From Sanguinoderma infundibulare (taxonomy: Eukaryota > Basidiomycota > Agaricomycetes > Polyporales > Polyporaceae): 64,000 nt of DNA. The number at the start of each line of letters is the position of its first letter. The stretch's first letter is position 1. The translations under genes were made by a program, and so were the position numbers. The stretch lies in NCBI GenBank assembly GCA_032821775.1, contig JAVLRN010000003.1, forward strand, positions 372,001-436,000. Reading direction: 5' to 3'. The notes under the pieces were generated by a model. That model was not told where the DNA came from, did not search any database, and saw nothing but the letters and a program-made list of their open reading frames with translations. This document shows, piece by piece, positions 394 through 54,828 of this stretch.

Positions 394-2440
394 TTGGACT
401 CCCCTTTGCACCTTATGCCTCCAATCCGGAACCCCCAGCTCGCTAGATCACCGGCTGCCACGTCGACCGCCACGGTGGTCCGGCCAAAGGACGCAGAAAA
501 TATAGATTCATACCGTGACTCCAAGCCAATGTTCCCTGTGAGTCTGCGTAGTCACGCGATTGTACAATACTACCATATCCGAGTACGTATTAGCTGCAGG
601 CAACAGATGAAAAAATCCAACCCAGATTGACGTTGAGCGGACCGAGCCACACGAACACAGAGCTGGATGTGAAGCTGGTGAGCATGTTGTCAGTATTATT
701 CACTCGAAGATATGATAACTGAATGCAGGATTTCGAACGCGTCATGTCCCTCAGGATCGCCCGATTCCCGATCATTCTCTACTCAGCGCCCTTCAAGTTG
801 GAGATGTCAAGCCCAACGTAAAGCCTGAAGTTCATGATCCAGTAAGTAACGACTAGAACTTAGGCTAACGAATATTCCTGCTGAATTTCATCTACCGGAC
901 ACAACTCGGGAATGGATGGTTAAGGCAGACATGGTAGTCGCGCCTCGTGAACATGAAGGGCGCGCACGCCCAACAGTCGAAGTCTTGCTTCGTTCCTGGA
1001 AGGATGTTCGTAAAGCCAAAGCTGCTCGCGCACGCGTCGCCCAAGCCAACGCCTGCCAGCCGAATGCGCACGATCCCACAGCGGCAGATGTGGACGAGAA
1101 AGCCGACCGCGGTCTCGCAGATATGATCGACTATCACCCCCCACAGATCGTCCTCCATGCTGCCGTCGAGGAAATGAAAAATGTAGGGGGATCTCATCCC
1201 TATTTTGCCATGAACGGCGTATCTCATGCCCTTCTACAGCCGGACGTGAAGATCAAGGAAGAACTCCTTCTCAGCGACGAGTTCTTCCTCAACGCCCTTA
1301 CCTGGGAAGGCATCAACTACCACCACCCGATCCCGCTCCCCAAACACATCGCCGAGTTCGGCTTCACGCGCGCCTACATCTCGCACCTTTACGGCGGGAA
1401 CACGCAGGACGTCTTCCCACCTGTAAGTAAAGACAAGGTCGAGTGGCACGGGCTCGCCGACTGGGCGTTCCTCTCCCTGGAGTGGAACCCGCATGCGCCA
1501 ACGCGCCCGGGCTACTCCGGGCTGTACTTCACGATGGGCAAGGCGACGTTGTCAGACGAGTGCGAGACGCTCCGGCGGGTCAAGTGGACGTTTGTCAGGT
1601 TGGAGCGGAACCGGTGGGTCTACCTTGGCCAGTACAGGTTCACCCCTGGGCCGTCTCTTACGGCGGATCTGTGGAAGGAACAAAGCACTCAGGTCAACGC
1701 GATGACGGTCTTCCTTGTCTGCTTGGCTCATTTGCTGAGACTTCTGTTGTCTCCTCGCAGGTTCGCCGGGCGTGGGCGAGAGGTATATTCCTTAAGGATT
1801 GGGGGGCGGACATTCTCCTCCGGATCTGGTTCCGCCGCGAAAGAGGCGTCGACTTCAAGCCAGAGAGGCAAGACATTGACGATGCCAAGAAGAACATCGA
1901 ACGGATTCGCAAGATCATGACAGAAGAGGACATCATGGGCGCATATGATCGTGGAGAGGAGGTGCGTTGGGACGTGCAGAATCATTATCCATCACTACTC
2001 TTTTGACTCCTTGAAAACAGGAGATCGGGACGTTTAGGATGACGTGCACCGGTTACGACGCGGAGTTCCAACGCGTCTTACAGAGGAATGCCCACAGCTT
2101 TGTCCAGAAACCAAAGGCGCCGAGGGGAACGAAGCGGGGGCGGCGACACAACGTTGAGGTCAAACCTGAGTCTGATGAAGATGATGTTCGTGTCCCCGAG
2201 CGCGCTCAAAAGCCCAAACGTTCTGCCGCAACCGGGGAACGACAGATGGCAGCTAAACAGGCAGAGAAAGCTCTGAAAAGGCAGGGTTTGAAACGAAAGC
2301 CCTCGGAGGTCGACTTCGATTTGAAGGAGGAGGACGACGGCGATGAAAAGGGGCGGGTTCCAGCGGCTGGAAGCTCTTCGATAGCTATGAACCGGCCTAA
2401 ACGAGCGGCAGCGATGGTCAAGCGCCAGCGGACCAGTTGA
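394..2440 (+). CDS. DUF6697-like nuclear-type protein, copy A (multi-exon)
   Basis: The function is unknown. The central part resembles the Basidiomycota-restricted family I know as DUF6697; this is recalled, not searched. The model I can read has exons at about 394-537, 626-677, 729-841, 925-1182, 1240-1692, 1761-1961 and 2021-2440, separated by GT-AG introns of 50-90 bp that keep one frame. The conserved core includes PIPLPKHIAEFGF, ISHLYGGN, WNPHAPTRPG and WVYLGQYRF, followed across the next introns by RRAWARGIFLKDWGA and GTFRMTCTGYDAEF. The C-terminus is acidic and then basic and ends RPKRAAAMVKRQRTS, a plausible nuclear localisation signal. The core exons are solid. The first three exons, and the choice between ATG 394 and ATG 415, are uncertain. 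A diverged tandem copy follows 0.6 kb downstream on the same strand. Confidence 0.65.
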
Positions 2441-3012
2441 CGGGATAGTTGTCTGCCCAGACCTGCGGTCAAGACCCGTAGATGTCAAGCTGTCCAATCC
2501 ACCGCACTTTCTTGGTGATCAGACTTACGGAGTGTCGAACGGGAGCTCCGAGTATAGTCGTCCGACTAGTGTACTAGGCCGAACGGTAACAAGCATATAC
2601 GTTTACGCCACTTGATTTCCTCTGAATGGACGGGAATACGAATCGGAATGAGGAAGAGTTTGAGGTTGAGGCGTCTATGAGCACCTTCCCTGCACACGGT
2701 CCCGAGCTACGACGCGCATAAGCGATGCGTATGGGGGCCTGCCACGCGACACCAACGTTGCCCCCCTCAACTTTAGGCGAGCATGCTGCCTCGACCGCGA
2801 TCGATAACCACTCACTCTCGCACCCCACCGGACTTGAAAGTGGTCTCAAAACGCCATCGTCGTCTTCGGAAGGATCAAATTTCGACGAACAAACTTGGTG
2901 AAACCAGCAGAGCACTAGGATCCCGATAACACAAGTCCTAACTCAGTCGTACAGCGACCATGGTGCGTAAACCGCCACAGGATAATAATATTGTTTAAAA
3001 CGTTGATGGAGG
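2441..3012. other. Intergenic spacer between tandem paralogues
   Basis: There is no supported gene. The first part (to about 2530) matches the sequence after the second paralogue (4915-5010) in short stretches, such as the shared CAAGCTGTCCA and CCACCGCACTTTCTTG blocks. The duplication unit therefore included the 3' flank of the gene. Confidence 0.4.
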
Positions 3013-4791
3013 ATGATTTCTCAGAAGAGCTCCAGTACCGACGAAACCGAGATCCCGCAGGCCTTTGATCGAGTTCAAGGACACCTCCGGGTTGCGCTTC
3101 CAGTTGCCAGCACGAAGAATGAGCCTTCGGACCGTCACAAAGCTAGTATGTATGATATGCTCCGATTCTTCGGGTGTGAGCCGGTTGTCCGAAATGACAA
3201 CCATATTCTTAGTCAAAAATGAGGATGCGAAACTTCGGAACGCCAAACGAGAGTACGGAGTCAAGACGGAGGCTTTGAACGTCACGGGGGAGCTTCTTCT
3301 AGATTACGACTCGGACAGCCGCCCCGACATCCCAAGGCCCCGCAGCTCAGCAACGAAGAAGGCAGAAGACGTTCCAGGAGCTCAGGCAAGTAACTTGTCT
3401 TCCGATGGTCATTTGCGCGTCCAATGCCTTGACGAAAACCAAGGTTTTTGGCTTCCAGCACGAGCAAGAGCCTCCGCGTCCACCCTCTCCTCAGCCTCAT
3501 TCCCCTATTCTGCGTCACTACCGTGATGGTCGAGCACTTCCCGGACTAGAGGTCCTATTGCCTAGATGGACCGACGTTCGTCGACGGAGGATGATGGCCG
3601 CCCGAGCCGGCCAAGGGGGGCGACAGGAGCGCCCGGAGAACTCGGTTTCCATCAAGCCCGAGCCCGATGACGACGTGAAGCCGCCGCTCCTAGCTCTGGA
3701 TGAGCTCAACCCCATGGAAGCTCGAGAAGCCCTGCGCACGGCCGTGCAGGGCCTACGCAACGTGAGTGCACAGATGTTCAGTGCGTTCCGCATCAGGCCC
3801 TGGCTCAAGTTTCAACATGCCGCATTCCTGTCGCGTAGCCCGACGCGAAGGTGAAGAAGGAGCGGCTGTTGAACGACGAGTTCGTTCTCGATGCCCTCTC
3901 TTGGGAGGGCATCAACTACCGGTACCCGATCCCGCTCCCCAAGGAAGTGGCCGAGTTCCGGCTCCACCGCCGCTACATATCGCACTTGTACGGCGGGAAC
4001 GTCCAGGAGACACATCCAACCCCACGAAAGGAAATGCTAGAATGGCATGGGTTGGACGACTGGGAGTTCCTCAGTCTCGACTTCAACCCGCATGCGCCGA
4101 CGAGACCCGGGCGTTCGGGTCTCTTCTTCTCCAATTGCCGGGCGACGCCTGGTTGGGATACCATTGAACGTACATTCGTGTGCGTCGCGTCGGGCAAGTG
4201 GATGTACATGGGGCAGTACCGGATGGAGGTCGGGATATCGCTGTCCACTCAGCAATGGAAAACCCAGAGACCTTCCGTAAGTGCCTGCCAGTTACGGGTT
4301 CAATTCTCAATTCTCAACTTTTGTCTTCGGCGTTCGCAGGTGCGCCAGGCGTGGGCGAAGGGCATCCTGCGAGCCGGGTGGGGCGAAATGAACGGCGTTC
4401 GGATTTGGTACCGGAAACGGCGAGGCGGTGGCTACGAATTGACTAAAGAAGATTGGGATGAAGGGTATGCCAACCTCAAGACCATTCGAAACCAACTGAG
4501 CGAGCAAGACATCATTGGCGCCCTTGATCGCGGAGAGGAGGTGAGTACCTGCCGAACACTCTCTGCTCACGACTCAGTTGACTACCGACGATGGATCAGG
4601 AAATAGGGACATACAGGATGACGTGCGTCGGGTACGACACCGAGTTCATCATCGTTCTCGTCCGCAATGCGCCCGCGTGGGAACGAAAGCACAAAGCCGA
4701 ACAGGCAGAAAAGGCTCTGAAAAAGAAGGGCTCGAAACGCAAGCCCATCGACGTCGACTCCGTTTCGGATCAGGAGCAGGAGCAGGAGTAG
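3013..4791 (+). CDS. DUF6697-like protein, copy B, C-terminally truncated
   Basis: This is a paralogue of the gene at 394-2440, with the same domain order and intron positions. The exon ending at 3761 carries a basic arm and an SIKPEPDDDVKP stretch. It is followed by exons 3839-4276 (PIPLPKEVAEFRL, ISHLYGGNVQE, FNPHAPTRPG, WMYMGQYRM), 4340-4540 (VRQAWAKGILRAGWG, DIIGALDRGEE) and 4600-4791 (EIGTYRMTCVGYDTEF). The frame stops at TAG 4789-4791 inside a GAG/CAG-rich repeat. If that codon is ignored the frame stays open to the TGA at 4912-4914 and encodes the same RPKRAAAMVKRQRTS tail as copy A. The nonsense change thus removes the putative nuclear signal. The N-terminal exons are uncertain: about 3013-3134 and about 3220-3391, then the exon from about 3440. 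The protein may be functional, truncated or on its way to a pseudogene. Confidence 0.6.
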
Positions 4792-23065: not shown

Positions 23066-23538
23066 CACCTGTACGCGCCTGCATGTTCTGAGGGATCCTG
23101 TACACAGAATTGATCTGATCAGTTGGTTATAATTGTATGCATCGTGTTCATATCCGAGCAACCCACCTGAAGGGGAGAGTGCCGGGCCAATGGTAAATAC
23201 CTATTGTGTTGGGTCAAATGGGTGCATACGTGCACGCCTGTGTTCCAGAGGGAAAATAATCGAAATTAGCAGGTATAATCAGGTATTCCGGTTGCCCTTG
23301 CAGTATCCAGGCATGCTCAAATATCAAATGCTTCATGAAACATTCATTACCATAATTGAGAGACACAAGAAAGTCTGAACAGAACAATGCACTGCACTAC
23401 CCTTGCTCACCCACGATGCCCGCACACACCCACACCCACCACACCCACAAGCAGAGTCAGTTCGCCCTATGCATCCGTGCACGTACAGATGCATCCTGTG
23501 ATAGGCACCCATCCAACAGCCAAATGTCTGAAACAAAA

Positions 23539-23617
23539 GCACCCACCGGGATTTGAACCACTGACCTCCAGCAGCCCAGTAAGTACCTTAGTCAATCTAA
23601 CCGCTGGACTAACATGC
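23539..23617 (-). other. tRNA-like module in the left arm
   Basis: Mirror copy of the module at 25430-25508, reading outward on the minus strand. It has an A-box-like TAGTCCAGCGGTTA and a B-box-like GGTTCAAATCC. The T and D stems do not pair well, so it is not a functional tRNA. Confidence 0.45.
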
Positions 23618-25429
23618 CTTTTATATACATTATAAGTAATCAATCTATATAGTGAAAGTCAGCCGCCCAACCCTTCGGCCATGTTCCTTCCCAATAGGGA
23701 AGGTCACTACTAGGTGGATGTTCTTGGAGGTGTTATGAAGTCAATACTAATCCGATTTTGTTCGTTTTGGGCTTGTTTTGTTCGTGATTTTGAGGTGGTT
23801 CCAACGCGTCCAACAGCGTATTAGTTAGTGAGGTATTGACTGCACTATCAGGTATACAATGGTCGCTTCAAGCAGGTAAAGAATGGTACGTATCTCTATC
23901 AATTCTCCACGTATCTGTTCGTGCGAGGGCTCGTTGGAACCGCATTTTCAATGCGGTTCCAACGAGCCCTTGACCGTATGAATCTGTCCATCTGTTCCCG
24001 AGATATGCTGACCCTCTCCTCCTACTAGGAGGACAGGTTGGCATATCTCGGGACTGAGGCCTCCTATTTGCGTTGTTTTTGTTGCTTACAATATATACAT
24101 GTTGCCATGGCATGGAAACCTCTATTTGCAGCCGCTATAAGCCCTGTATAGATTTCAGAAAGGGGAGTCCTGTATTCCGGTGCTTACCCCATTCTCACCA
24201 TGATATCTCTGTCCCACATTGCGTCCCCTCGGATTTCTATGCCTCGTCTGAAAGCTGTGAATCAGGGCTTTCCAACGAGCCCCATATCGCCTATGTACGA
24301 TTGCTGGAACAATCAGAATGCACGTCCCTTTCTCCTCCCCCCTGTGTGCCTAATGTTTCGCATACAGCTCTCCCAAATGTTTGCCATTCGTCATGTACTA
24401 TACCTCGTTCGAATCACACAATATACCGCTTTCAAACAAGCCAAAATTTACCAAAAATGACCAGGAACTCGTCAAGATACGGATTGCAGCATCCGGATGG
24501 CTAGTGTCCAAGTAATATTGCACTGGGTTATGGCTGCCTTAGGCTAGCTCTTGGGTTCTGCAATCCGTATCTTGACGAGTTCCTGGTCATTTTTGGTAAA
24601 TTTTGGCTTGTTTGAAAGCGGTATATTGTGTGATTCGAACGAGGTATAGTACATGACGAATGGCAAACATTTGGGAGAGCTGTATGCGAAACATTAGGCA
24701 CACAGGGGGGAGGAGAAAGGGACGTGCATTCTGATTGTTCCAGCAATCGTACATAGGCGATATGGGGCTCGTTGGAAAGCCCTGATTCACAGCTTTCAGA
24801 CGAGGCATAGAAATCCGAGGGGACGCAATGTGGGACAGAGATATCATGGTGAGAATGGGGTAAGCACCGGAATACAGGACTCCCCTTTCTGAAATCTATA
24901 CAGGGCTTATAGTGGCTGCAAATAGAGGTTTCCATGCCATGGCAACATGTATATATTGTAAGCAACAAAAACAACGCAAATAGGAGGCCTCAGTCCCGAG
25001 ATATGCCAACCTGTCCTCCTAGTAGGAGGAGAGGGTCAGCATATCTCGGGAACAGATGGACAGATTCATACGGTCAAGGGCTCGTTGGAACCGCATTGAA
25101 AATGCGGTTCCAACGAGCCCTCGCACGAACAGATACGTGGAGAATTGATAGAGATACGTACCATTCTTTACCTGCTTGAAGCGACCATTGTATACCTGAT
25201 AGTGCAGTCAATACCTCACTAACTAATACGCTGTTGGACGCGTTGGAACCACCTCAAAATCACGAACAAAACAAGCCCAAAACGAACAAAATCGGATTAG
25301 TATTGACTTCATAACACCTCCAAGAACATCCACCTAGTAGTGACCTTCCCTATTGGGAAGGAACATGGCCGAAGGGTTGGGCGGCTGACTTTCACTATAT
25401 AGATTGATTACTTATAATGTATATAAAAG

Positions 25430-25508
25430 GCATGTTAGTCCAGCGGTTAGATTGACTAAGGTACTTACTGGGCTGCTGGAGGTCAGTGGTTCAAATCCCG
25501 GTGGGTGC
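25430..25508 (+). other. tRNA-like module in the right arm
   Basis: A 79-nt stretch with a Pol III-type A-box-like word (TAGTCCAGCGGTTA), a B box matching the consensus (GGTTCAAATCC) and a T4 tract directly after it (25509-25512). It is preceded by ATATAAAAG. The first seven and last seven bases pair at five of seven positions, but the T and D stems are broken. I read it as a tRNA-derived, SINE-like promoter module rather than a working tRNA gene. Confidence 0.45.
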
Positions 25509-25660
25509 TTTTGTTTCAGACATTTGGCTGTTGGATGGGTGCCTATCACAGGATGCATCTGTACGTGCACGGATGCATCTGTAATGCTACGGATGCATCC
25601 GTGACATGCACGGATGCATAGGGCGAACTGACACCCTACCACCCACACCCACCACACCCA

Positions 25661-26243: not shown

Positions 26244-27002
26244 TTACCAAGCTTCATTTGCGAGCTCCTTCTTCTGCTGGGGGCAGTCATGCTGGTAGTG
26301 GCCCTTCTTGCCACATGCGAAGCACGTAATGCACTCGATCAGGGTGCGAGGCTTTATAGCGGTGGCAAGTGCGATGTCGGGGCCGACAGCCATGGCAACC
26401 GGTGCAGTGATGGGCACTGCAGCGAGTTGACGCACTTCTTCATTAAGAAGACGGGTGACGACATTTTCGAGTGTGAGGTCATCGGGCGGGGTAGAGTCGA
26501 GGGTGATGATGAGCTGAGAATAGGTGTCGGGAAGGCCATTCATGAGAACCAGGATACGGTCCTCCTCGGTGACGGGGGTGCCAATCTCCTCGAGGCAGAA
26601 GGCGGCATGACAGACATCAGCAATCCAGGTGGTCATTGGCTGATCTGGGTGCTTTGCCATGCACCAGAGAGCGCGGTGGTGAGCGATGCGGGTGCCAAAG
26701 CCACGGGCGAGGTGAACACGGCAGAGCTCGGACCAGGCCTCATGTGCATCGTGGGACTGGATGTGGGCGTACTGTGAGGGCTCCACATTGATGATGAGCT
26801 CAGCGTGGGCTTCGGCGATCTTCGCACACCAAGTGCGAACAGCCTTCGTGCTGTCAGAGCCGGTGGGATGTGTTTCAGCGGCAGGGGAGCTTGTGGCTTC
26901 CCAGAGGCCCTTCTGAACAAGGATGGCTTCCATTTCAATGGCCCATTCAGGGTAGTTGGTGTCAGAGAGCTTCGTGATGTGAGATGAGGACATCGTGGGC
27001 AT
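26244..27002 (-). CDS. Copia-type Gag with zinc knuckle
   Basis: An intact frame of 252 residues. The N-terminus shows ITKLSDTNYPEWAIEMEAIL and the Gag body WSELCRVHLARGFGTRIAHHRALW and MTTWIADVCHA, as in Ty1/Copia Gag (UBN2/retrotran_gag_2 type). The C-terminus has a CX2CX4HX4C knuckle (CFACGKKGHYQHDC) that would bind RNA. It has no stop or frameshift, unlike most other element genes in the window. It is the only coding region of the TR-GAG element and presumably packages RNA with enzymes supplied by full-length relatives. Confidence 0.85.
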   Translation of the reverse strand: MPTMSSSHITKLSDTNYPEWAIEMEAILVQKGLWEATSSPAAETHPTGSDSTKAVRTWCAKIAEAHAELIINVEPSQYAHIQSHDAHEAWSELCRVHLARGFGTRIAHHRALWCMAKHPDQPMTTWIADVCHAAFCLEEIGTPVTEEDRILVLMNGLPDTYSQLIITLDSTPPDDLTLENVVTRLLNEEVRQLAAVPITAPVAMAVGPDIALATAIKPRTLIECITCFACGKKGHYQHDCPQQKKELANEAW

Positions 27003-29210: not shown

Positions 29211-30260
29211 TTATGCGAACCATTCATTAGAGTCTTCTGAGGATCTGCTTGCTTCGCTGTCGATCTCAGATTCTGGATCTTCATCTTCATCTGAATCAGA
29301 CGCTGAATCTTTTGATAGATCTCGGGGCAACCTCGGCTTGTAGGGAATTACTCTGAATGCAGCATACCCCTGCCGAAGGAATGTGCTATCCAGTTCTGTT
29401 AGGATGTAGACATTATGCATTGTCTTCCGGTGTACTATGTATGGTCCAGAGTACCTTGGTGTATACTTGTCCACAAGGCCTGCATCCCTGGCTGAGTTTC
29501 GCATGAGGACAAGTGTACCTGGCTGGATGAGTAGCTTCTTCAGCCTATGCCTAAAGCACTTTTCAAACTGTTCCTTTGACCTGATTCTAGAGCGAAGTAT
29601 AGTGTCACTTGCACACTTAAGGTCTTGAGGATGCTTGTCTAGCTGCCGCATCCTCAAGGCTAGCAGTTCTGCTGAAGATAATCCTGCCTGGTATGCGCTG
29701 ATCATGAATGTAGCCTCTGTAAGGTCGAAGGGGAGAATGGGATGGACACCATGAAGCAAATAAAAAGGGCTAAATCCTGTGGACCACCGTGTGGTAATGC
29801 GGTCTGCAAAAAATGTCAGATGGACTTTCTTTGGCCATTGCTGAATATCTCCTTGACAATCTTTCAGGATTGCTTCACGGATGGTAAAATGGCCTTGTTC
29901 AACAATGCCATTGCTGTGTTTATTATAGGAAGATATCTTGATTTGAGGAATGCCATACCGCTTCAGCAGTTGCTCAGTTGCTCCCTTAAACTCCGTACCA
30001 TTATCCGTGATAATTTCTGCAATATGCCCATACCGACAGATGATTTCCTCTCATAAAAACTTGGCAATGGTCTTCGCAGTGATCCTTCGCAGTGCACGAC
30101 CTTCAGCTGCATGTGAGAGGTCATCGTGCGCTGCAATGATATACCTATATCCATTGACACTTGGCATAAACATGATGTCCACATAAATCTGAGAAAAGAG
30201 TGACAGGTGTGTGAATGGTGGGAGAGACCTCTATGCGCTTGGTGTTCCACAGTTGACATT
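29211..30260 (-). pseudogene. Integrase core and C-terminal part, Gypsy A
   Basis: The core is readable over frame shifts: CGHHVYAKCQWI-region, IIAAHDDLSHAAEGRALR, IITDNGTEFKGATEQ, QIKISSYNKHSNGIVEQ (the catalytic D,D,E region). It is followed by an open frame of 182 codons from 29759 (HGVHPILPFDLTEATFM, PGTLVLMRNSA, YSGPYIVHRK, GYAAFRVIPYKPRLPRD) ending in an acidic Ser-rich tail, EWFA. No chromodomain is visible. Confidence 0.75.
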
Positions 30261-31265
30261 GATGGCAGGTGCTTACATGATGTTTGACATCCTGGAATAA
30301 GTTAGGCCAATAGAATCGCTCGCGCACATAATGGAATACGCCATAGACTCCTCTGTGACCCAGCTTCTCATGAGCTTCTGTGAGGATGCTATACCGCTGA
30401 TCGCTGTCAAGGACCACTGCTAAAGGTAATTTCTGATTGCACCGCTTATACATCTTTCCTGCAGTCATGAAGAACTGAGTCGCTCGCTGTAGGAATCGCC
30501 TCTTTGCTTGGATAGATGGAAATAATGGAGTCTCTAAGGTCTCAAGAAAATGCTGAATGTAGTGGAGCGCCTGCTCTTGTTTACTGTCAGTCGCATGTAG
30601 AGCTGGCACTTCAGAATGTGTGGGGGTTATGGAATCCTTCCACATAAGGAATAGTGATGTCTCATCCATCCACTGATCCAGCTCTTTAGCCTCTTGCCTT
30701 TCCTCATCTGTTGGTCTCCTCCTTGAGAGGGCATCAGGTCCTCTGTGTTTGTCTGCAGGGACATGCTGTAGCTGAAAATCAAAGAGAAGTATTCCCTGAA
30801 TCCAGCGATTGATAGTGGCATTTGGTTGAAGGTCAGGATTATTGAGCATATCCTTGATGTACTTCACATCGACCTCAAGTATCAACTTTTTAATGCCAAT
30901 AAGGTACAGCCTCCAATGTCACAGTGCACGAAAGCATCCATGCAGCTCTAGCTTGGGTTGGCTATACCTGGACTCTCGCTCATTGAATGGAAGGGATCCA
31001 TATCATGCTGGCCTTCGCCGACCACTCTCGTCCTCTTGAGAAAGAATAAACCCAACTGCAATATTGCTGGAGTCAATTGATATGTAGACTGGCCTGTTAC
31101 AGTTATAGTCTATAGGGTGTAGTGCTGGTGCAGAGGAGATTAACTGCTTGAGTCACTGAAAAGCTCCTTCACACCTCTGGTCCCATATAAACTCAGCATC
31201 CTTTCTGATGAGTTCTGTCAAAGGCCGACAGATTTCTGAATATCCCTTGATCCAGATCCGCACTG
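30145..31265 (-). pseudogene. RNase H and integrase zinc-binding part, Gypsy A
   Basis: After the guest element the polymerase resumes as VRIWIKGYSEICRPLTELI, then RNase H words (PVYISIDSSNIAVGFILSQE, RYSQPKLELHG, LEVDVKYIKDML, LQHVPADKHRGPDALSRR). The integrase HHCC region follows (HEKLGHRGVYGVFHYVRERF, HHVSTCHQCQL). Stops near 31080-31160 and 30930-31000 break it. Confidence 0.78.
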
Positions 31266-32790
31266 CATCAGGAAAAACGATTTTCTCTCGAGTGTGGCAG
31301 GATGCTCGAGAGTGCTCGGGAGGATCGAGAGACGCCTAGAGGGCGTGCGAGCTCTCTCGAGAGCTCGCGAACTGCAGGAGGCCGGGTAGAACATGCCTGT
31401 AACCAGAATCATTATTAATGTTGTCTGTCCTTCCGCGCTTGATGCTTTTCTACCAATTAATGGCCAGCTATACCTACCCCTCACCTCTATGATGACGATT
31501 CGAACTATACTAGCAGCCCAAGCCTGCGATATTGGTCAAGGGCCAAAGTCGTTACGGACCGGCCCTAAACCTTCACGTGGTCTCCGGAACCTGCCAACCA
31601 ATGCCCTAGCTGTCTTTGTACCTCTCCACCTCATTTCTTCCTGGAGGCTCCTGCTGAGCCTTATCCCCTCGCTCCCCCTCTCACTGGAGTCTCCTCCTCT
31701 CTCTGCTCGAACTACGCTCTCGCCAGGTGGACGACGTAGGACGAGGGCCAGGTCCTTATGTACGTTCCTGGTATGCACGCATCAGCGTCTGCGAGTGAAG
31801 GGGGACCCACCAATCAGAAATATAGAAGGAAGTGTGCTAGGTTGCGGTCAGTGCTCAGCCGCTCTTCCCCTCATGCCCCCTTCCTGCAGGTTTCTGCCAG
31901 TCTTCATGACTTCTCGTCGGCTTTGCGCGCGTGGAGAAATAATTGTTGGCTGATCCCGAGGACTGAGCGTATGGCTACTACTCTTACCACGCTGACTCGA
32001 GCGAGCCTGGTCCGTCTACTCTGCTATATGTGCACTTGCCTGGATCATTACACAGCTTTAGGACCCATGGTTTCATTTCTCAAGATACCAACTCAATACA
32101 TTTGCATTGGTATCCCATCCACGTCTCTCCTGGCCATGTTTGCGCCTTCCACTCAATACCCGAGAATCAAATAAACCCCTTACCCTTCCTCGACGCGCTG
32201 TTGAAAGTGAGTAAAGTGGATGTACACGAAGGCATTGTACGTCTATTCATATCCTCTGTCTGCTGCTGCCATCATACTAACTACCAGGCTCGCTCGCTCA
32301 GCCGCTTGGGTGGTGGCGTCACCCTTCAGGTTCAGGCCGCCCAGATGTCGACTACCAACATGGAAGCTGCTACCACGGAGCTCGCAGATAGGACAGGGAA
32401 CACTGATAGCGAAGATGAGGGAAACAGCGATGGAATTGTGTAAGTGGTTGTAGTGATGCCATCTGGGGGTAGCGATACCATTGTATACCCACTCGTCCCA
32501 TAGTGATCTCGGTTAGAGTATCTGGATGAATGCATTATATTTCCATGCATTTTCACACCATGAATGGATGACAGCGAATCAAAACAACCTGTGCTAGCTT
32601 GCCTCGGCAGTGCTCGAGGCGAATCGGCGAGTGCTCGAGACGTCTCGAGAGGTTGCCCATGCATCTCGAGAGCAATAGCTAGTGGCAGGCGGGCGCTCGA
32701 GAGCACTCGAGAGGGGGGGGATGTCTCAGCCCGCTCGACCTGCTCTCGCGCCTCGCGAGCGCTCTCGAGTCAAGTGGATTTTTCCTGATG
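31266..32790. mobile_element. Non-autonomous TIR element nested in Gypsy A pol
   Basis: 1525 bp with a perfect 12-bp terminal inverted repeat (CATCAGGAAAAA) and a 2-bp TG duplication. Removing the element and one TG restores the RT/RNase H frame exactly (GLCGT|VRIWIK). Subterminal regions are packed with the palindrome CTCGAG: about seven copies in the right 210 bp and three in the left 110 bp. No transposase is recognised. A short open exon-like frame (MSTTNMEAATTELAD..., 32345-32442) ends at a good splice donor (GTAAGT) and might be a relic of a lost coding region. The superfamily is undetermined; a 2-bp duplication is compatible with CACTA-like elements. Confidence 0.8.
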
Positions 32791-33720
32791 TGTACCACAT
32801 AACCCTAAAAAGCCTCGCACATCCTTGACTGTCTGTAGTGCTGGCCACTTCTGAACTTTCTCAATCTTGACATCTTCTGGGAGTCGCCCTTTAGAACTAC
32901 ACTTTTGGCCAACAATGATCACTTCAGGCTTGCAGATCTGCATTTTCTTTGCTGAAAATGTTGCACCTGCATGTGATAATCTGTGAAAAATCCTATGCAC
33001 ATCCAACGCATGCTCCCATATAAACCGCCTGATGCCAGGGTTCGCAGGAATAGTCTCTGGATTTCCCGCCTGATCAAGGTACTGGCTTTTGGGTCCTTTG
33101 ATTGGGAGGTCATCAATGAATATGTTTGCAGTGTGGGGGATTTCATCTTGTAGGATAAAAGTCATACAATTCTGGAATTCTGCGGGGGAATTGGTATATC
33201 CCTGCAGCATGCAGGTGATTCGCAGAAGTCCCAAAGGTGTCATAAAAGAGGTCATGTCTCTGCTATGTGGATCAACAATGCGCGCATCATATCCAGAAAA
33301 TAGGTCAAACACTGTGTAACATTGATATCCTGCAAATGGCTCCACAAAGTCATCCAGGATAGGTGGTACTCCTGCATCTCTTATACTGACTTTGTTAAGT
33401 GGCTGAAGGTCATGGACCAATCGCAAGTCTCCATTCTTCTTCAGCACACAAAATCACTGCGAACGATAGGATGCTTGACTCGGCTCATAAACTCCTGCAG
33501 CAATTTTCTCCCGAATAATCTTAATGACCTTCTCCTTAATTCCTGGAGGTACTGGAATGTTGGGCAGCTTCCAGGCTTCATGAGGGACTACTGGCATAAT
33601 GTATGGTGAAAAGTAATCCTCCCGGAGTGTACCGCGGTCATTATCCTCAAATGCAATGCACTTTTCATTAAGTCTGAGAATATGGAGGAACAGCTTCTCT
33701 TCTTCAGGTCATAGATATCC
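32791..33720 (-). pseudogene. Reverse transcriptase, Gypsy A
   Basis: The RT core is an open frame from 33447 (LVHDLQPLNKVSIRDAGVPP, CYTVFDLFSGYDARIV, ITCMLQGYTNSPAEFQNCM, catalytic FIDDLP, VKDVRGFLGLCGT). Upstream in the same frame comes YFSPYIMPVVPHEAWKLPN and EKIAAGVYEPSQASYRS, then a stop just before FCVLKKNGDLR. A further in-frame stop lies at about 33708. The domain is recognisable but inactive. Confidence 0.85.
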
Positions 33721-36117
33721 ATCTGAGTTGATATTGATTTTGTCAATGTGCTCCCGAGTCAGCTTTGCTGTTAGAATAAAATCTGGTATATTTGCACTCA
33801 ATGGCAGTAGGGACTTTAATGGATTTTCTGGATAGCACCTAGTAACCTTGCATTCTTCAGGCACTGTACCAGCTACTGGCTTTACCTTCTGGTCTACACG
33901 CTTGAAGGCTGTGTTTACACTGCTTGTAGCTGAATATAGGTCCTTAGATCCTTCAAAGATGCAGAAGTTTGACCAAAAAATCAGTAACCCTAGGCTAGAG
34001 TTATGCCCGAAATTACTACTAAGTCCTTCCTCCTGCAGATGCTCATCTGCCCGCCCCACACTTGGCATTGCACTGCCCTCAGTGTGGAGAGAGTGCATAG
34101 TGCAAAAGGAAGAGTCAGTGTTACCTTGGTTGCTGTCAAAAAGGGCTTGCGGAGGTGCTGGAGTGCACACGGAAAAGGGTGGGTATGGGCGGGCTATCAA
34201 AGCGCCGGGATATACATTGTGGAAGCTACTGGACACCATATACGGAAAGTAGGTAAACACTGAGGGATGAACATATGCACAGCAGCAGATAACGAGGGAA
34301 AGCATGGCACAGCCAGCCATAGCGCTTGTCACAGACGCACAACTGAAACATACAGGAGGTGACATAAGGTGGAGGGACATAGCGGGAAAGGAGCTCAAGG
34401 CAGAAACTCGAGAAGACGGATGTGTGGGAGTGTGTGGGAACTGCAGCGGAACAGAGTCACCAGGAAATCGTAATGTATGGGGACGACGTAGCACAAACGT
34501 GGCACCACTCTTGCACGCGGGGATCTCTCTCCTGCGGATGGGGGTCTCGGATCGCATATGGAAGGGGAAAAGAAGGCGAAAACACACCTTACTCAGTGAA
34601 AACTTCGAATTCTTCTTTGAAGAACTTGCATAGGTCATCTGCACAGCTCTGCAGGGCCTCGGATAAGACTTGCTCCATGAAAACACGGACCTCACCGTTG
34701 ATGAACAGGTCTTCATACGCGTCTGTCTGCGCACGGGATACAGGGGATGGACAGCGGGCATCATGCTCGTCCGGGGTTCGTGGAGTGTCATGGGAAGGAG
34801 AATCGTGGTCGGGAGGTCCAGTCGAAGGTCCAGCCGTGACAAAGAATACGGGTACCAGAGGCAGTAGCAAAGAGATGGGAAGGGAAGGTGTGGCGGGAGC
34901 TGATGCGGTCTGCGTGGTGCACAAGTTCGGAACGGGAATCAAGTAGGACGTACGAAGGTGTAGAGGACGACGTGGGAGCTCCAGCTTGGTCCGCTCATGG
35001 ACCAGGCTTTGCTGATCTTGATTGACATGATCAAGGTCGGGGCCATCTGTGTCGAGCATGGAGTTGTCCTCTCCGTCGGTGTCGTAGTCGTCGTCATCGT
35101 CGTTACTGGTGGGCGCACTGGGGGAGGGTGTCGTCGATGGACGCAGTGTCGTGCGGCATGCGAGCTGAGTGTCCTCGCCTGGAGGACACTTGGGGATTCG
35201 AGGTTTCTTGATGGGCGGCAGGTGGATGATGATGCGCGGGGGGCTGCCCAGGCACGAGGCCTGGTCGCCATCATCGAAGGTGGGCTGGAGATGGGGGACA
35301 ACGGGCTCCTCCATCGTGAGGTCGAGGCCACGACTGCCGCAAAGATCCAGTGGCGGGAGCTCCGGGAACGTTGGGTTGTCCTTGAAGATGTGGCGGTGGT
35401 CATTGGGCGGATGTGTGAGGCCGGGGATCATTGCTGAGTCAGGGCCACCGCCACGTAGATACGTGGTTTGCGTGCGGCGGGGTTGGGGGAGCTGCGCATC
35501 CTGTGTGTGGTCGTCGCCGATGGGGAGAGGGTCACGGTGGTCGCCCCTGCCATCCTGCAGGAGGGCGGGGTCGACCGTCTTGACGTGGTCGAGGTCGGGG
35601 ATGCCAAGAGATTCGTGGAGGTGAGCAAGGGCTCGGGTGCGGAAGGTGGGGTGATGGGGGTGTCGTTGCTGTCGTTGCTGTCACGGTCGAGGCCAGTCTC
35701 GGGGGCGTCGAGTAGGAGGAAGGGCACACCGAAGTGGGGATCCTGCCCGCTGGCGTCCGTGTTGTTGGTCCCTGGGGTGAGGGTCGATGTCTGTCCGCTG
35801 GAGGACTGTGGGGGCTGGTCGACGTGTTGGGGGCAAAAAGGGGGCATACGCCACAGTGCATCCGTGAGCACAGTGAAGAGGAGGGGAATGGGGGGCTCAG
35901 GCGACGCAGGGGGGGTCGCAGCACCCTTGTTTGGGTGCTCCAGGAGGTAGTCGTCCCCCTGGACACTGGCAAAAATCGTGGTCATGGGCAGAGCCGTTGG
36001 GGCTTTGAGTGTCGTGGTGATGGGCTCCTGGTTGTCCGTCTGAGGCTTTGTGAGCCTCGGGTCTCGAGTGGGGAAAGGGGAGAGGAAAAAGGACAGGGTC
36101 GAGGCCGTGTTGAGCAT
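33721..36117 (-). pseudogene. Linker region between protease and RT, Gypsy A
   Basis: About 2.4 kb of minus-strand frames with no known retroelement domain. Frames 34589-35431 (acidic DDDDDYDTDGEDNSMLDTDG, C-terminal helical VRVFMEQVLSEALQSCADDLC) and 35428-36117 (Pro/Thr-rich) are open but do not match a family I know. Near 33.9 kb the sequence again reads like pol (KVTRCYPENPLKSLLPLSAN). It is longer than usual for Gypsy elements. Confidence 0.4.
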
Positions 36118-36121
36118 GTCC

Positions 36122-37954
36122 TCACCCTGGAGAATGCGCGGAGGGTCGAAAAAAAGGGGGGCTCACGTTTTTACAGTCATTTGCTTGCATCTCCTCCTCC
36201 CTCGCATTCTCCCCGTCCTCCTCGTCCACTTCCATATCCATTTCCCCCTCCTCCAGCTCCTCCTTTGGGGTTTGGTCGATCTTGCTCATCTTCGGCTCAG
36301 CGTTGTCATTGTCGTCGTCATCATCTTCGCCCTTGGGCCCAGTCATAGCGAGGAAGGAAGGGGTGAGGCAAGTAGGATGAGGAGAGTGGATGGGAGACAA
36401 AGCGGGAGTCGTGTCAGGAGACAGAGAGATGAGGGAGGGAAGAGAGTCCAGGGAGAGGTGGCGGCTGGGATCCAAGGATGCGGGCGCTTCCGCCTGGAGG
36501 TGCCATGGGTCTCGTATCTCGAGCGCACGTGATGGACGTGAATTGAGGTGCTCAGTAGGGTAAAAATGTACGTAGACCTGTCTGTGACGCGTAATCGAGT
36601 GCTTAGGGGAGTTATCGAAGCCGTCGGAGACCGTGCCGGAGAAGGTGGTCATGGGGATATACCAATCTTGGAAGTAGCAGCCTTGATAATGGCCGAAATA
36701 GCTGGGGAACATGGTCTGCTCGAGGACCCCGCCTATGTAGTGCTGTTCGGGGGCCGCCAGGGCCATCGAATCATCATCGCAGATGAAGTAGGAGGTCATA
36801 TCAGGGGTATCGAAGGTGTCAGGGGTGTCAGAGAGGTCGGGGTTGTCAGCGGCAATGTGATAGGAGGTGCGGGACTGGTGTGCTGGTTGGGCAAGGAGTT
36901 CCAGCACTCCGAGTTCTGTATTTATAGGGTTTTTGAACAATAAAAATGTCCCTTCCTCCCTCTCGTCAATAGAAATATAATTGTCCCTCTGCCAAAACCT
37001 GCCCAACAATAATCCGAAAGGTGCATTTTCAGAAACACACAGGGTAGCCTCAGTCTGGGCCTCTCCGCAGGTCAATACAACACCTCTGATAATTCCCATG
37101 AGGGTGGATACGGAATTGTTCGCAGATAACATTCTTGGCTTTATTGTTGTGTTCAAGGGTAATTGGATTACCCTTTTCCACAATTCACTGCTGACAATGT
37201 TCATTTCGGAGCCTGTGTCCACTATAGCTGATATTGGCTGCCCATTGAAATATACCTTAATCCTGATTAATGGACTTTGATAAGCCAATAAAGTGGGAAT
37301 TGGAGGGGTTTCCTTTACCCCTTGACTTGAGATAGGTCTTTTAACCTTCATTAAATCCTGCAGCTGCTGAGATACATCCCGGGAGGTCCCTATAACCTCT
37401 CCTACTGACATAGTAACTGGAGTCTTGAGAATCCTGTCAAGGATTTTGCTCGGATTTGCTTGCTTTGCAATCTGTGACTGAACTAAGGGTTTCCGGACAT
37501 TTTTCTCCACCTTAGGTTCATCAGCCTTCTGTCTTCTGGAGGCTCTGTATGTGGCATCCTTCATGACTATGTCTTCATCATTTAGTGGGTCAAATGTGGG
37601 TTTGTGAGTCTCAACTGGCTTGGGCTGGGACACTTGAAGTGTCATATCAGCCGGATGGATCCCTGGAGGTTTGGATTTCTCTGGGGCAGTGCGCTTTGCC
37701 CAATTTGGATGTGGTGGTGGAAATACTCCCTCGAAGCGCTCTTTGTGCGCTTCCCTTGCCATTTTGGGAGCATGTTCTACAGGGAATACATACTGGTAAT
37801 TGTCCTCTGCATCTGACCCTTCCCAATGATCTATGGGTGCTTGAGCTGCTAAAGCCACAAAGTTTGAGCTGCCATGAGCTCCCTGAAGGCGGCAAACTGC
37901 ATGGGTAAGTGGTTCATCATCATTGCGCATAATCCTTGCACCATCTCCCATCAC
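36122..37954 (-). CDS. Gag C-terminal / aspartic protease region, Gypsy A
   Basis: An open frame of 610 codons. It carries a basic-acidic linker, then a retropepsin-like segment: PLIRIKVYFNGQPISAIVDTG with the catalytic DTG (IVDTGSEMNIVSSELW), followed by FGLLLGRFWQRDNY. This order is typical of Gypsy protease. The C-terminal 200 residues are low complexity and end in a strongly acidic stretch (EELEEGEMDMEVDEEDGEN). It is in a different frame from the upstream Gag frame, so a shift or a mutation separates them. Confidence 0.8.
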   Translation of the reverse strand: MMGDGARIMRNDDEPLTHAVCRLQGAHGSSNFVALAAQAPIDHWEGSDAEDNYQYVFPVEHAPKMAREAHKERFEGVFPPPHPNWAKRTAPEKSKPPGIHPADMTLQVSQPKPVETHKPTFDPLNDEDIVMKDATYRASRRQKADEPKVEKNVRKPLVQSQIAKQANPSKILDRILKTPVTMSVGEVIGTSRDVSQQLQDLMKVKRPISSQGVKETPPIPTLLAYQSPLIRIKVYFNGQPISAIVDTGSEMNIVSSELWKRVIQLPLNTTIKPRMLSANNSVSTLMGIIRGVVLTCGEAQTEATLCVSENAPFGLLLGRFWQRDNYISIDEREEGTFLLFKNPINTELGVLELLAQPAHQSRTSYHIAADNPDLSDTPDTFDTPDMTSYFICDDDSMALAAPEQHYIGGVLEQTMFPSYFGHYQGCYFQDWYIPMTTFSGTVSDGFDNSPKHSITRHRQVYVHFYPTEHLNSRPSRALEIRDPWHLQAEAPASLDPSRHLSLDSLPSLISLSPDTTPALSPIHSPHPTCLTPSFLAMTGPKGEDDDDDNDNAEPKMSKIDQTPKEELEEGEMDMEVDEEDGENAREEEMQANDCKNVSPPFFRPSAHSPG

Positions 37955-38068
37955 ATACCTCCCATTTCCATCTCGCTTGACAATTCCGCTGGTTGTGAGA
38001 TCCTTCAGTGCGACACAGTCATTCAGCCCATGCCCTTGTGCACCACAGCTATATCATCTCATCTCCTC

Positions 38069-47544: not shown

Positions 47545-50500
47545 ATGCATTCGCCCCGGAACGTCCCCCGCCGGGACACACCTCCGCACTTCCTGCAACC
47601 AGAGCCCATCAGGGCTCCCACAGGACATCAAAACGCGGTTGACATGACCGCATTCGACCCCTCAAGCTTCGCCATGGCTTGCTCGCACGAGACGAGCCGC
47701 TACGGCGGCAGCCAGGGGTTCTCGGATGGCCTCAACACCATCTGGCTGCCAACTCGAGCGCGCAATCCCGGCGCACTCTTCCCTTCACCCCTGTCGCCGT
47801 CGCCTAGACGGGAAGCATCCGGCTTCAGAACTGCCAGCATGGACCAGACGGGGGTGATAGGTGAGTCCCATTTGTACAATTTCCGCCCCCATTCAACACC
47901 CTATGCGCCACCCCCGGTTCAGGCGAGTCCCTCGCGGCTGGCTCCACAGCTGCCGCATGGCTCACCCCTGGGGCATGCAACATCCCCGCGACTGGCGCAA
48001 TCGCTGTCATATGGGTCTCTGCCTTCTGAGCAGAGACCGTTGAGCGCGAGGAGTCAGCCGCGCGACATTGTGGCCGCGTATGAGATGGCTCTGACAGCAT
48101 ATCAGAGCTCTCTCATGATGCAGGTATCTTTGCATTCCCAGCAGCTGTCCGAACACTCGCGTGAGCTCGCTACGCTCCATGCGAAGTCGGATGCTGTATT
48201 GCGCGAATATGCAAATGAGGTGCGCGCGGCTCAGGCCCGCACCAATCGTGCTGCGGACGATAACCAGCGAATGATGCTGGATATCGAGCGGATGATCGCA
48301 GACTCTCGGCGGGCCCTCAACCTCCCGCCGCTGACCTCAATTGTGTCCCCTCCGCCTCTGCCTGTACTGCCGCCACTGTCACACTCAGCCCCGCCTGTAA
48401 ATACCAGTAGTTTAGATAGGTATCCAAGTGTGACTAGGGCGAACACCTCACCACCATCTGTGCCCAGTCATGAGCCCGAGCGTGCACTGACTGAGTATAG
48501 TGAACATCTACCACATCGCCACCCATCTGAGTCGCTCGATGAGTTTGACGAATGGGTGGGTCGATTGGCCCGACAGCAGAGTCGCATCACCACGGCTATC
48601 CACTCAAGCGTGGATAGCCTCGCCCAGAGCGTGAGACAACTGTCCACCAACAGTCAATCCGCTCCTGCAGGCGTGAGCTCTGGTTACCCACCTGAGATTA
48701 CACATGGTGTGCCTCAAGAAGCTGATCGCTATGCAGCGTATCGGCCGCTCTACAATGACATCCTCAATGAGCAGCATGAATGTGCTCGTCGAGCTAATGA
48801 AGAGTACGAGCAGCGAGCTGAGGCTGACTCTCATCATGCAGCGCATGCCCCCCACGGCTCATATTCTGGAGTCAGTGCTCCGCCACATATGGGCTACACC
48901 CCACAGTCGACAGCGGCCCCACAGACTGTCCCAATGTCTGTGCAGTTCAATGTACCGCCACAGTCGATTTCAGATGCTAGAGCCACATATGCAAATTGTC
49001 ACCAGCCAATGCCTGTGTATATGGCTGGCCAGCCAGTGAGCGTATTGCAGTCAGCTGCAGGCCAGATGAGTGCATCTGCCACAGCTGGATTACCCTGCTT
49101 GAGCAACCCGCACCTCGACGGGTTGCTACAGCAGGTGATGTGCAACATCCAGTACAAGGTGGGACAACCACTTCCACCTCTACCTGAGGGTGCGAAACAG
49201 CCTAAGATTGAGATGCCGCCTAAGTACAGCGGATCTAGTGATCATCAGGCATTTTATCGCTGGCTCGATGGCATATTGAACTGGATGCGAGCTTACAATC
49301 TGTGCGGTCCTCAGGCTGATTTCCATCGACTGAGGTACCTGCGCCAGCACCTTGAAAGAGATGCTGAAGAGTGGTACACTTGTGAAGTGGACCACCCGAA
49401 CATTGCTGGTGTCCCAACGTTTGAGGAGGTAATCTGTGCGATGCATGCCAGATTCATCCACTCTAACACGGCTGCCAAGGCGACTGAGAACTTTGTGTGG
49501 TGCTCATACACCTCTCGTGGTGTTGAGCAATTTGCTGAGGATCTCAAGCAGCGAGCTGCTGAGATGATTGAGCATCCGAACATCTATGAGATGCGCATGC
49601 GGTTGTTCGATGGACTCCCTGCTCACATGCGGAAGGACTTGGTTCACCGTGGCGTGTCACCTGAGTACTGTGACTGGACAACCATCCTCGAGAATGCACG
49701 GCAGCTCGAGGAGGCATACCGGCAGACAGAACTAGCGTCCACCCACCAGTTGTCAGTATACAACCATGCGAACAGTCGAGCTTGTGAGCATGCGACTGAG
49801 ACTCAGCGCCATGACCGTGACTGATCTCGCTCATGGTCGTGAGGCAGACCGTTTGAGAGACGGTCAGAGTGCACCGACAGGCATGAGCGGCGTGATAGAG
49901 ATGACCGTGGACGGTGTGATTCCAAGACACGGTTCCCTCACCACCCGCCCACACCAGGGCCATCTGCAATGAAGGATGTGCCCAAGGACAATGCGTGCTA
50001 TGCATGCGGAAAAGTTGGCCATTTCAAAGGTGATCCTCAGTGCCCAAAGTACAAGGACGCTGGCCAATCTGCCTCAGCCACTTTTCGGCATAAAGCCCAC
50101 TTCCATGCTCAGCGGGTAGTTGACAAGGAGGAGGATGACATGCGAGATGGCTGGGGAGGATCTCAGCTAGAGTCTGAGCACCACTCTCCCGATTCACAGC
50201 GTGAACCAGAGGGGGAGGATGACTCAGGCTCTGACAGCTCAGAAATTCTCCATGCTCACGCAATGCGCATCCTTGAACAGGAAGATGTGCATCGAGATTC
50301 TGCGGAATCCCAACCAGTGACTGCAATGTGTGCGATGTGGGCAGTCACAGTTGAGGAAATTGAGGATGAGTATTATATTCATCAGCGCATACGTCGAGAG
50401 GACCCACAGAGTGAGGACTCTGGAGTTCAACTCAATGCAATGCATGCCTCAAAAGCCCAGACACCAATGGAGTTTCGGTCGACTGTGTGGCGGAAAGATG

Positions 50501-53500: not shown

Positions 53501-54828
53501 ACAAATATAAGCTTACCGAGTTGGTACTTGACATGGGTCATCGCATGCTCAGCCATTTGGGTCCGCGCAAAACCAATGAATACCTGCGTCGATGGGCTTG
53601 GTGGCCTAGCATGACACAGGAAATTCACAAGTTTTGTGCTACCTGTGGGACTTGTCAGATGTCCAAAACCAGCAACAGGCCGACCGCCGCCTGGTTACAC
53701 CCTCTGTCAATTCCCTTATTCCCCTGGCAATCATCGGGAATAGACTTCCTTGGTCCATTCCCTGATGTCAGTGGTTTTAACTACATTTGGGTAGTTATAT
53801 GCCGCCTCACCAACATGATTCACCTGATACCCTGTCGAGTTACTGATACAGCGTCTGACCTCGCAGTGACTTACATCCGCGAAGTCATTCGTCTGCATGG
53901 AGTGCCTGAGACAATTGTCTCAGACCGTGACTCTTGGTTCTGGCGTGAGGTGCACAGGCTACTCGGTACGAATCTGTTGATGTCAACAGCATTCCACCCA
54001 CAGACTGATGGTGCAACCGAGCGTGCGATCCACAATGTCGGGCAGATCTTGTGCTCAGTTGTGGAACCTGACCAGCGTAATTGGGTTGAAAAACTGCCAC
54101 TTGTAGAGTTCGCACTCAACACAAGTGTCAGCGCTTCAACCGGTTTCGCTCCCTTTGAGCTCAATTATGGTTACATGCCGAAAATGAGCTCATTTCCAAA
54201 TGTACCAAGCACGTTCCCTGGTGCGACTGCATTCGCAGAACGTGCTCGCCACAATTTGGAGCAGGCGCACGATGCTCTGATCGCTGCGAGGGTTGTTAGC
54301 ACTCACCAGGCTAACAAACATCGCTCCGATAGTGTCCCTGTGTTTCAGAAGGGTGATTTAGTTTTTTTATCAACAAAGAACTTATCACTCTCAAAGGGAC
54401 GCGCGCGGAAGCTTGCACCTAAGTATATTGGCCCATTTGTGGTGCTTGAAGCGCACCCAGATACGGCTACATATACGCTCGACATCCCACCGGATCTGCG
54501 GCGTCATCGGGTGCACCCTACGTTCAACGTGAGCTTACTAAAGCCACACGAGCCAAATGACGACTTGCTATCTCCAGCACGTGAAGTCAAACGGTTTTAT
54601 GACTTCGGAATGCCTGTAAATCTTGAGTGGCAAGTAGACGAGATCGCTGGGCACCAGTGGGATGGCGAAACACTCCAGTTTCTTGTCCACTGGACCACAG
54701 GCGAGCACACGTGGGAGGCACACAGCGAGTGTGATGAGCTCGAAGCTTTGGACAAATATTTACGGTTGCTCGGGGTTGTGGATGTCACGGAGTTGCCCCG
54801 CAGGCCCCGTGACGTCACTCCAATCTGA
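47545..54828 (+). pseudogene. gag-pol of Gypsy B, one frame with six stops
   Basis: The frame runs 2427 codons from ATG 47545 to TGA 54828 with stops at 49822, 49840, 50977, 51685, 51907 and 52390, and no frameshift. In order: a long Pro/Ser-rich N-terminus with a central helical part; capsid (KQPKIEMPPKYSGSSDHQAFYRWLD, 49195-49700); knuckle CYACGKVGHFKGDPQC (about 49999); retropepsin (MVEIAGNLAYSMFDSGSTTSGV, about 50557); RT (VYKKNGKLRTVVDAQQRN, YRSKIDMSDAYEQIRI, VYLDDIFVFSN); RNase H (VITDASVYGVGAMYG, FIATDHQALTQM); integrase (HRMLSHLGPRKTNEYL, CATCGTCQM, SGIDFLGPFPD, IVSDRDSWFWRE, FHPQTDGATERA); and chromodomain (LEWQVDEIAGHQWDGETLQF, HTWEAHSECDEL). Five stops are TGA and one is TAG. Confidence 0.92.

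Follow-up and report, generated by a model that had tools for sequence, protein, structure and literature searches.

The fold-back element at the locus

The window, a stretch of 64,000 nucleotides from contig JAVLRN010000003.1 of Sanguinoderma infundibulare, harbors a fold-back structure that an inverted-repeat search and pairwise alignment resolve into a left arm (23469–24494) and a right arm (24553–25578) of 1026 bp each, separated by an asymmetric loop of 58 bp (24495–24552). The arms are 99.7% identical and differ at three sites (24134/24913, 24490/24557 and 24492/24555). A 41-bp insertion in the right arm (25579–25619) is composed of GGATGCATCC-type subterminal repeats, and the outermost matching inverted stretches of the element lie at 23456–23484 and 25604–25632. 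The first-pass annotation of this DNA had proposed a fold-back at 23456..25632, with arms of 1034 and 1075 bp, a loop of 68 bp and the 41-bp insertion as the structural difference between the arms. The fold-back and the insertion are real and the lengths are right if the arms are taken to stop at 24489 and 24558; whether the loop measures 68 or 58 bp depends on extending the arms across the two loop-adjacent mismatches. A CpG transition (CCG versus CCA) that had been placed near 24126/24915 corresponds to the mismatch at 24134/24913, at most 8 bp away. Hairpins nested in each arm had also been noted and are present in both, namely H1 (TCCCGAGATATGC..., 23996–24053 on the left and 24994–25051 on the right, limits drawn by eye) and H2, a perfect stem of 21 bp (23926–23970 and 25077–25121). 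In a covariation check of H1 and H2, 391 of 407 cells were paired and a double change occurred in 3 of 37 pairs; we rejected covariation because conservation at the DNA level accounts for the pairing equally well. The arms further contain two outward-facing tRNA-like units (23535–23621, minus strand, and 25426–25512, plus strand; limits drawn by eye), each consisting of an A-box-like stretch, a B box GGTTCAAATCC and a TTTT stretch.

Comparison with other copies places the limits of the complete element at 23449–25639, slightly wider than first annotated. The element measures 2191 bp, is non-autonomous and reads GTAGGGT...TCTGCTT on the minus strand. It is flanked by a 7-bp target site duplication, CACCCAC, which matches perfectly between the left (23442–23448) and right (25640–25646) sides. 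The ends are not mirror images of each other, as a GAGCAG-type end (here AAGCAGA) occupies 23449–23455 and a GTAGG-type end (ACCCTAC) occupies 25633–25639. The 26 complete members fetched from the genome likewise all combine a GTAGG-type end with a CTGCTC-type end (which reads CTGCTT in the window copy), a pairing that partly defined how these members were located. Of the 33 exact 5′ ends GTAGGTATTCAGT, 30 have as partner an exact 3′ end GAGCAGCTTCAGT in inverted orientation at a distance of 0.1–4.1 kb, and inspection by eye revealed no exact end site with another of its own type less than 5 kb away. The 7-bp duplications are exact in 24 of the 26 fetched two-ended elements and carry one mismatch in the remaining two, while flanks mispaired across copies as a control matched in 0 of 650 cases. 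No transposase had been visible in the element at first pass, and scans of open reading frames and Pfam agree: the longest frame overlapping the element encodes 148 aa with alternative starts allowed and no transposase, the 10 frames of or overlapping the element gave no Pfam match over the cut-off, and the longest ATG frame per complete member ranges from 63 to 167 aa in the 26 members. Long inverted repeats that form most of the element, a target site duplication and dispersed copies are the features of a fold-back DNA transposon. The window element is one insertion of a non-autonomous DNA transposon family.

A second site in the window (47200) resembles the end pattern with one mismatch and was rejected, as no GGATGCATCC repeats were seen nearby by eye. 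The surroundings are rich in retrotransposon sequence, with Gag-, reverse transcriptase- and integrase-like frames recognized by eye at 26244–27002, 30145–38000 and 49969–54828.

Family members and structural classes

A search of the genome (48.9 Mb in 87 contigs) with the element yielded 134 matches, including about 20 two-arm loci, and the copies lie on megabase contigs. The IMP dehydrogenase encoded in this genome has its closest match in Ganoderma leucocontextum (87% identity over 94%), which makes a polypore host probable. A lack of further copies and of shared ends in related genomes had been named at first pass as grounds for abandoning the idea of a fold-back transposable element; the search of this genome recovered both copies and shared ends. 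The fold-back is not a product of chance, given arms of 1026 bp at 99.7% identity and a genome with about 20 more two-arm loci.

The family falls into four structural classes. The window type comprises four complete copies of 2191–2234 bp (L021, L022, L038 and L040) that are palindromic to within 6–7 bp of their ends, together with the partial copies L039 and C9:2465238 and the relic L047. The main class counts 16 copies by end pairs, 14 of 2448–2459 bp, one of 4089 bp and one of 1450 bp, of which 15 were fetched (L023–L037). These 15 have in common a head of about 250 bp, located on one side only (247–258 bp in the 14 measured), and the junction between arm and head. The single-core class consists of seven copies with a length of exactly 1524 bp and an eighth of 1546 bp; the three that were read (L041–L043) contain the arm sequence once, at 82–83% identity to the window arm. 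The diverged class (L048–L050, 1.3–1.5 kb) has a core about 62–65% identical to the window arm and internal inverted repeats of 161–319 bp at 79–82% identity. Miniature members with the same exact ends also occur (L046, C9:2061395-2061603, 209 bp; C11:473379-473480, 102 bp). The loop of the main-class copy L037 holds a second fold-back of different sequence and about 1.6 kb (positions 2040–3760). Moreover, an end-like motif, GTAGGTATACAGT (one mismatch), recurs every ~16–18 kb along C15:371063-505480 in an apparent long tandem array and has three further matches on C21.

A candidate KDZ-type mobilizer

A pattern derived from the subterminal repeats at the element ends gave 61 genome matches at up to two mismatches and none when reversed as a control. 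Two matches outside the known copies, on contigs C6 and C10, each lie exactly 7382 bp from a KDZ match. The large KDZ elements at these loci span 23,348 bp (C6:752715-776062) and 23,347 bp (C10:470518-493864), are 99.5–99.8% identical in the parts compared, end in GAGCAG and GTAGG and are flanked by the 7-bp duplications CAAGGTA and GCTCTTC. Both contain a KDZ domain, and a CxC2 domain (E 2e-27) is found in the C6 copy, which was the copy scanned. A stretch of 197 bp at one end of the large element matches the main-class fold-back head at 77% identity. Hence, the family has the end layout, the subterminal repeats and the 7-bp duplications in common with a KDZ-encoding element, while the exact end letters agree only partly; the window-type ends (GTAGGGTGTCAG) follow the same layout with letters that are not exact. 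Since the core and the tRNA-like units of the small elements are absent from the helper parts read (about 15 of the 23 kb of the C6 copy), the small elements are not a simple deletion of the helper. Judged from these sequence features, the KDZ-type 23.3-kb element is a likely candidate for the mobilizer of the fold-back family.

Could another transposase, be it of the hAT type (7-bp hAT7), of the P/Galileo type or of some other kind, mobilize the family instead? Galileo-type elements make 7-bp duplications as well. According to PMC12730594, hAT7 families with 7-bp duplications occur in rust fungi, and Kyakuja, a member of the KDZ group, has CA..TG ends and no terminal repeats, unlike the family described here. 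The genome search returned 8 partial hAT matches over the cut-off. Of the two large elements with matching end layout, subterminal repeats and 7-bp duplications, however, both carry a KDZ domain and the C6 copy, which was scanned for it, a CxC2 domain. We thus regard a transposase other than KDZ as rather unlikely.

Further KDZ loci (L051–L054) carry none of the family's ends in the parts read. An autonomous element was also sought at the solo ends C12:502674 and C14:220900 (3 kb read each) and C5:3036121 (5 kb read, neighboring genes judged by eye), and these were rejected as end fragments or a truncated relic. The C6 element additionally contains a carboxylesterase-like fragment below the Pfam cut-off, so that the large elements, which also possess a terminal palindrome, possibly carry other cargo genes. 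TET/JBP domains have been reported in the vicinity of KDZ in elements of other basidiomycetes; here, TET/JBP matches lie 2–3 kb from many KDZ matches (e.g. C8:1011990 with C8:1014849) and none lies inside the C6 or C10 large element.

Probable homogenization of the arms and orientation of the loop

Although long palindromes are expected to be unstable, the 1-kb arms have stayed near-perfect in this family as its members diverged. In the one assembly from which arm identity and loop orientation were read, the arms of the 19 copies L021–L038 and L040 show 3, 1, 14, 42, 2, 43, 0, 1, 0, 2, 0, 4, 2, 2, 1, 3, 3, 9 and 0 mismatches within the copy, respectively. Hence, the arms differ at 0–4 sites in 15 of the 19 copies and at 9, 14, 42 and 43 sites in the four less homogenized ones (L023, L024, L026 and L038); L039, whose second arm is partial and which is outside the 19, has 11 mismatches in 455 bp. 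In 105 pairwise comparisons between main-class copies, the left arms (left as defined by contig orientation) show a median of 17 differing sites and a maximum of 65. Because the head and its junction are common to 15 copies, the main-class fold-back formed once, and since the fold-back thus predates the divergence of the copies, the difference between the arms of one copy should, without exchange between them, be at least as large as the difference between copies. Private variants follow the same trend: 34 are present in both arms and 8 in one arm in 12 main-class copies (L023, L024 and L026 left out), and the counts are 31 and 14 when all 15 main-class copies are included.

The remaining differences are unevenly distributed. 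In L023, L024 and L026, 93 of the 99 arm differences fall within the 200 columns nearest the loop, out of 1039 aligned; similarly, 7 of 9 are loop-proximal in L038, and 7 of 11 in L039 lie in the last 30 bp. The pattern looks as if homogenization had stopped short of the loop, and the unlike inner segments mark where it did. This polarity rests on few lineages, since the 16 copies other than L023, L024 and L026 show 11 inner and 22 outer differences. The short repeats of the diverged elements (79–82% identity, 0.5–0.9 kb apart) are not homogenized, which favors a dependence on hairpin-forming geometry and is confounded by the lower identity of these repeats. CpG transitions make up 19 of the 49 biallelic variable sites found in 11 main-class copies, with 38 CpG pairs among 470 C+G bases, and this fits the decay of methylcytosine.

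The loop is common to all 14 main-class copies compared, and its orientation relative to the asymmetric head is forward in seven and inverted in seven; L037 was left out of this count because another element is located in its loop. In the window type, the loop of L040 is inverted relative to those of L021, L022 and L038. When loop orientation is mapped on a tree of heads and outer arms (one tree, with some weakly supported nodes), 5 parsimony changes are needed, compared to a mean of 4.9 for shuffled labels. The loops of L027 and L028 are opposite, although a comparison of 2.1 kb shows 6 differences between these two copies, and an unlike inner segment common to L024 and L026 points in opposite directions in the two. 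These comparisons of sequence point to repeated inversion between the arms, and the inversions look frequent relative to base substitution.

Within-copy and between-copy differences, private variants and loop flips taken together, arm-to-arm conversion and inversion probably recur in this family. The first-pass annotation had reasoned that so unstable a structure must be either recent or protected. This misses the likely cause, since the arms appear to have been homogenized repeatedly after the family had formed.

Proposed mechanism

We propose an ancestor that resembled the 1.3–1.5-kb single-core copies and had a unique core, with a tRNA-like unit close to either end of the element. An inverted duplication of the core would have created the near-perfect palindrome, whose arms would then be kept alike by repeated arm-to-arm gene conversion, either through recombination or through mismatch repair in an extruded hairpin, while crossovers or the resolution of a hairpin or cruciform would flip the loop. 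The fold-back elements would be moved by the transposase of the large KDZ-type element, whose ends are laid out in the same way. The terminal 6–7 bp would remain unlike each other, perhaps owing to a need of the transposase for two different ends, a requirement suggested by the preserved asymmetry of the ends. Conversion and crossover between the arms explain both the likeness of the arms and the loop flips. We consider this whole explanation, a fold-back DNA transposon moved by KDZ, with arms homogenized by conversion and a loop flipped by crossover or hairpin resolution, to be probable.

Both patterns would also follow if one arm served as template for the other in a hairpin or dumbbell intermediate, which would moreover give an even split of loop orientations. 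The palindrome would then perfect itself during movement or replication through a single-stranded hairpin or dumbbell, so that each round restores the arms and randomizes the loop (7 of 14), and the need of the transposase for unequal ends would keep the last 6–7 bp different. We deem this variant unlikely.

tRNA-like units and the question of RNA silencing

We scanned eleven elements for B boxes using a consensus. A match near an end and facing outward is present in 10 of the 11 elements, and nine have it near both ends, L047 being truncated; in L046 (209 bp) only an ambiguous half of a tRNA-like unit remains. Weaker matches with 2 mismatches also occur inside some elements and in other orientations. 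An A-box-like stretch, the B box and TTTT are found in all 14 aligned units, which stem from ten elements. The units were not recognized as tRNA by ARAGORN (window and 9 loci) or by the Rfam tRNA model (window and 4 loci). A true tRNA or another known RNA family was therefore rejected, as none was found in the window at Rfam gathering scores; matches at lenient E-values fall below these scores and are mostly to microRNA-type hairpin models, with no tRNA model among them.

Known box-bearing systems are tRNA-derived SINEs and TFIIIC B-box boundary elements, which the units resemble in their A-box-like stretch, B box and TTTT. The fold-back elements differ from both in their 7-bp duplications, their unequal DNA-transposon ends and the paired outward arrangement of the units. 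The Pol III promoter boxes of a tRNA-derived SINE are thus present at the level of sequence, whereas the variable-length duplications of SINEs are replaced by duplications of a fixed 7 bp together with DNA-transposon ends. The units, paired and directed outward, may act as TFIIIC boundaries that protect the element.

The near-perfect arms would give dsRNA if transcribed, and Piwi and RdRP domains are encoded in the genome according to a domain search, so that the main role of the element might lie in a read-through transcript of ~1 kb that feeds RNA silencing. The only promoter-like features that were looked for and found, however, are the tRNA-like units, which face outward, end in TTTT and would not transcribe the arms, and relatives that are no fold-backs multiplied as well (the 1524-bp class with its seven copies of identical length). 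Silencing from a putative dsRNA source is possible; as the main role of the element, we judge it quite improbable.

RdRP-domain matches recur seven times at intervals of 17.66 kb on C1:4233761-4340990, where a unit with an RdRP-like gene appears to be tandemly repeated, and further matches are located on C43 and C76.

Assembly artefacts and recent folding as alternative explanations

Inverted repeats are trouble spots for assembly, and errors of polishing or joining within palindromes could produce part of what is observed here; PMC12870357 is devoted to fold-back artefacts in long reads. An origin of the palindromes, the arm identity or the loop flips in assembly or polishing is nonetheless very improbable, as the 19 copies have different flanks with 7-bp duplications that are exact in 18 and carry one mismatch in one, lie in megabase contigs, possess copy-specific variants in both arms and, in L023, L024 and L026, retain unlike inner segments. 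A recent, independent folding of each copy as the sole cause of the likeness of its arms, with no continuing conversion, would agree with the near identity of the arms within most copies and with the existence of single-core relatives that are no fold-backs, but is highly improbable and contradicted for the main class by shared junctions, as head, junction and loop in common indicate one folding event before a divergence of up to 65 sites, and private variants are mostly present in both arms.

Comparison with known systems

Fold-back DNA transposons, arm conversion and inversion, and KDZ elements are each already known; no paper on their combination was among the literature matches listed. The family resembles the Galileo and Foldback-like elements of Drosophila (P superfamily) in its long inverted repeats, their near identity within a copy and the 7-bp duplications. 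The family described here differs from Galileo in its GTAGG...CTGCTC ends, its candidate KDZ transposase, its outward tRNA-like units and a loop that is inverted in half of the main-class copies. For Drosophila Galileo, PMC3573991 states that the two repeats of one copy are 98–100% identical and proposes that repair from the other repeat extends the repeats. Human Y-chromosome palindromes (e.g. P6) undergo arm-to-arm gene conversion and rare inversions (PMC3723533), and to this extent are similar to the family; the palindromes described here, in contrast, are mobile and measure 2 kb, and their inversion seems frequent when set against base substitution. By analogy, the family probably works like Drosophila Galileo or the Y-chromosome palindromes, on an element that is likely moved by KDZ. 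Its 15 marked copies are a natural resource in which arm-to-arm conversion and loop inversion could be measured in a eukaryote, and a candidate helper is present in the same genome.

With the KDZ transposons of basidiomycetes (Kyakuja, Dileera and Zisupton; KDZ1–3), the candidate helper has the KDZ and CxC2 domains in common. PMC12730594 describes Kyakuja with 7-bp duplications, CA..TG ends and no terminal repeats, and PMC12810828 describes KDZ1 of Cryptococcus as about 11 kb long with 241-bp terminal repeats and 8-bp duplications, and KDZ2 and KDZ3 with duplications of 4–8 bp. Measured against Kyakuja as described there, the family does not qualify, since it possesses GTAGG/CTGCTC ends and subterminal inverted repeats. 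It is further set apart from Kyakuja and the other KDZ elements by the GTAGG/GAGCAG ends, the 23.3-kb helper and the many palindromic non-autonomous members. The family also suggests that very large KDZ transposons (23 kb) mobilize passengers bearing tRNA-like units in a polypore fungus. At 23.3 kb, the large elements exceed the KDZ elements described in the available parts of PMC12730594 and PMC12810828.
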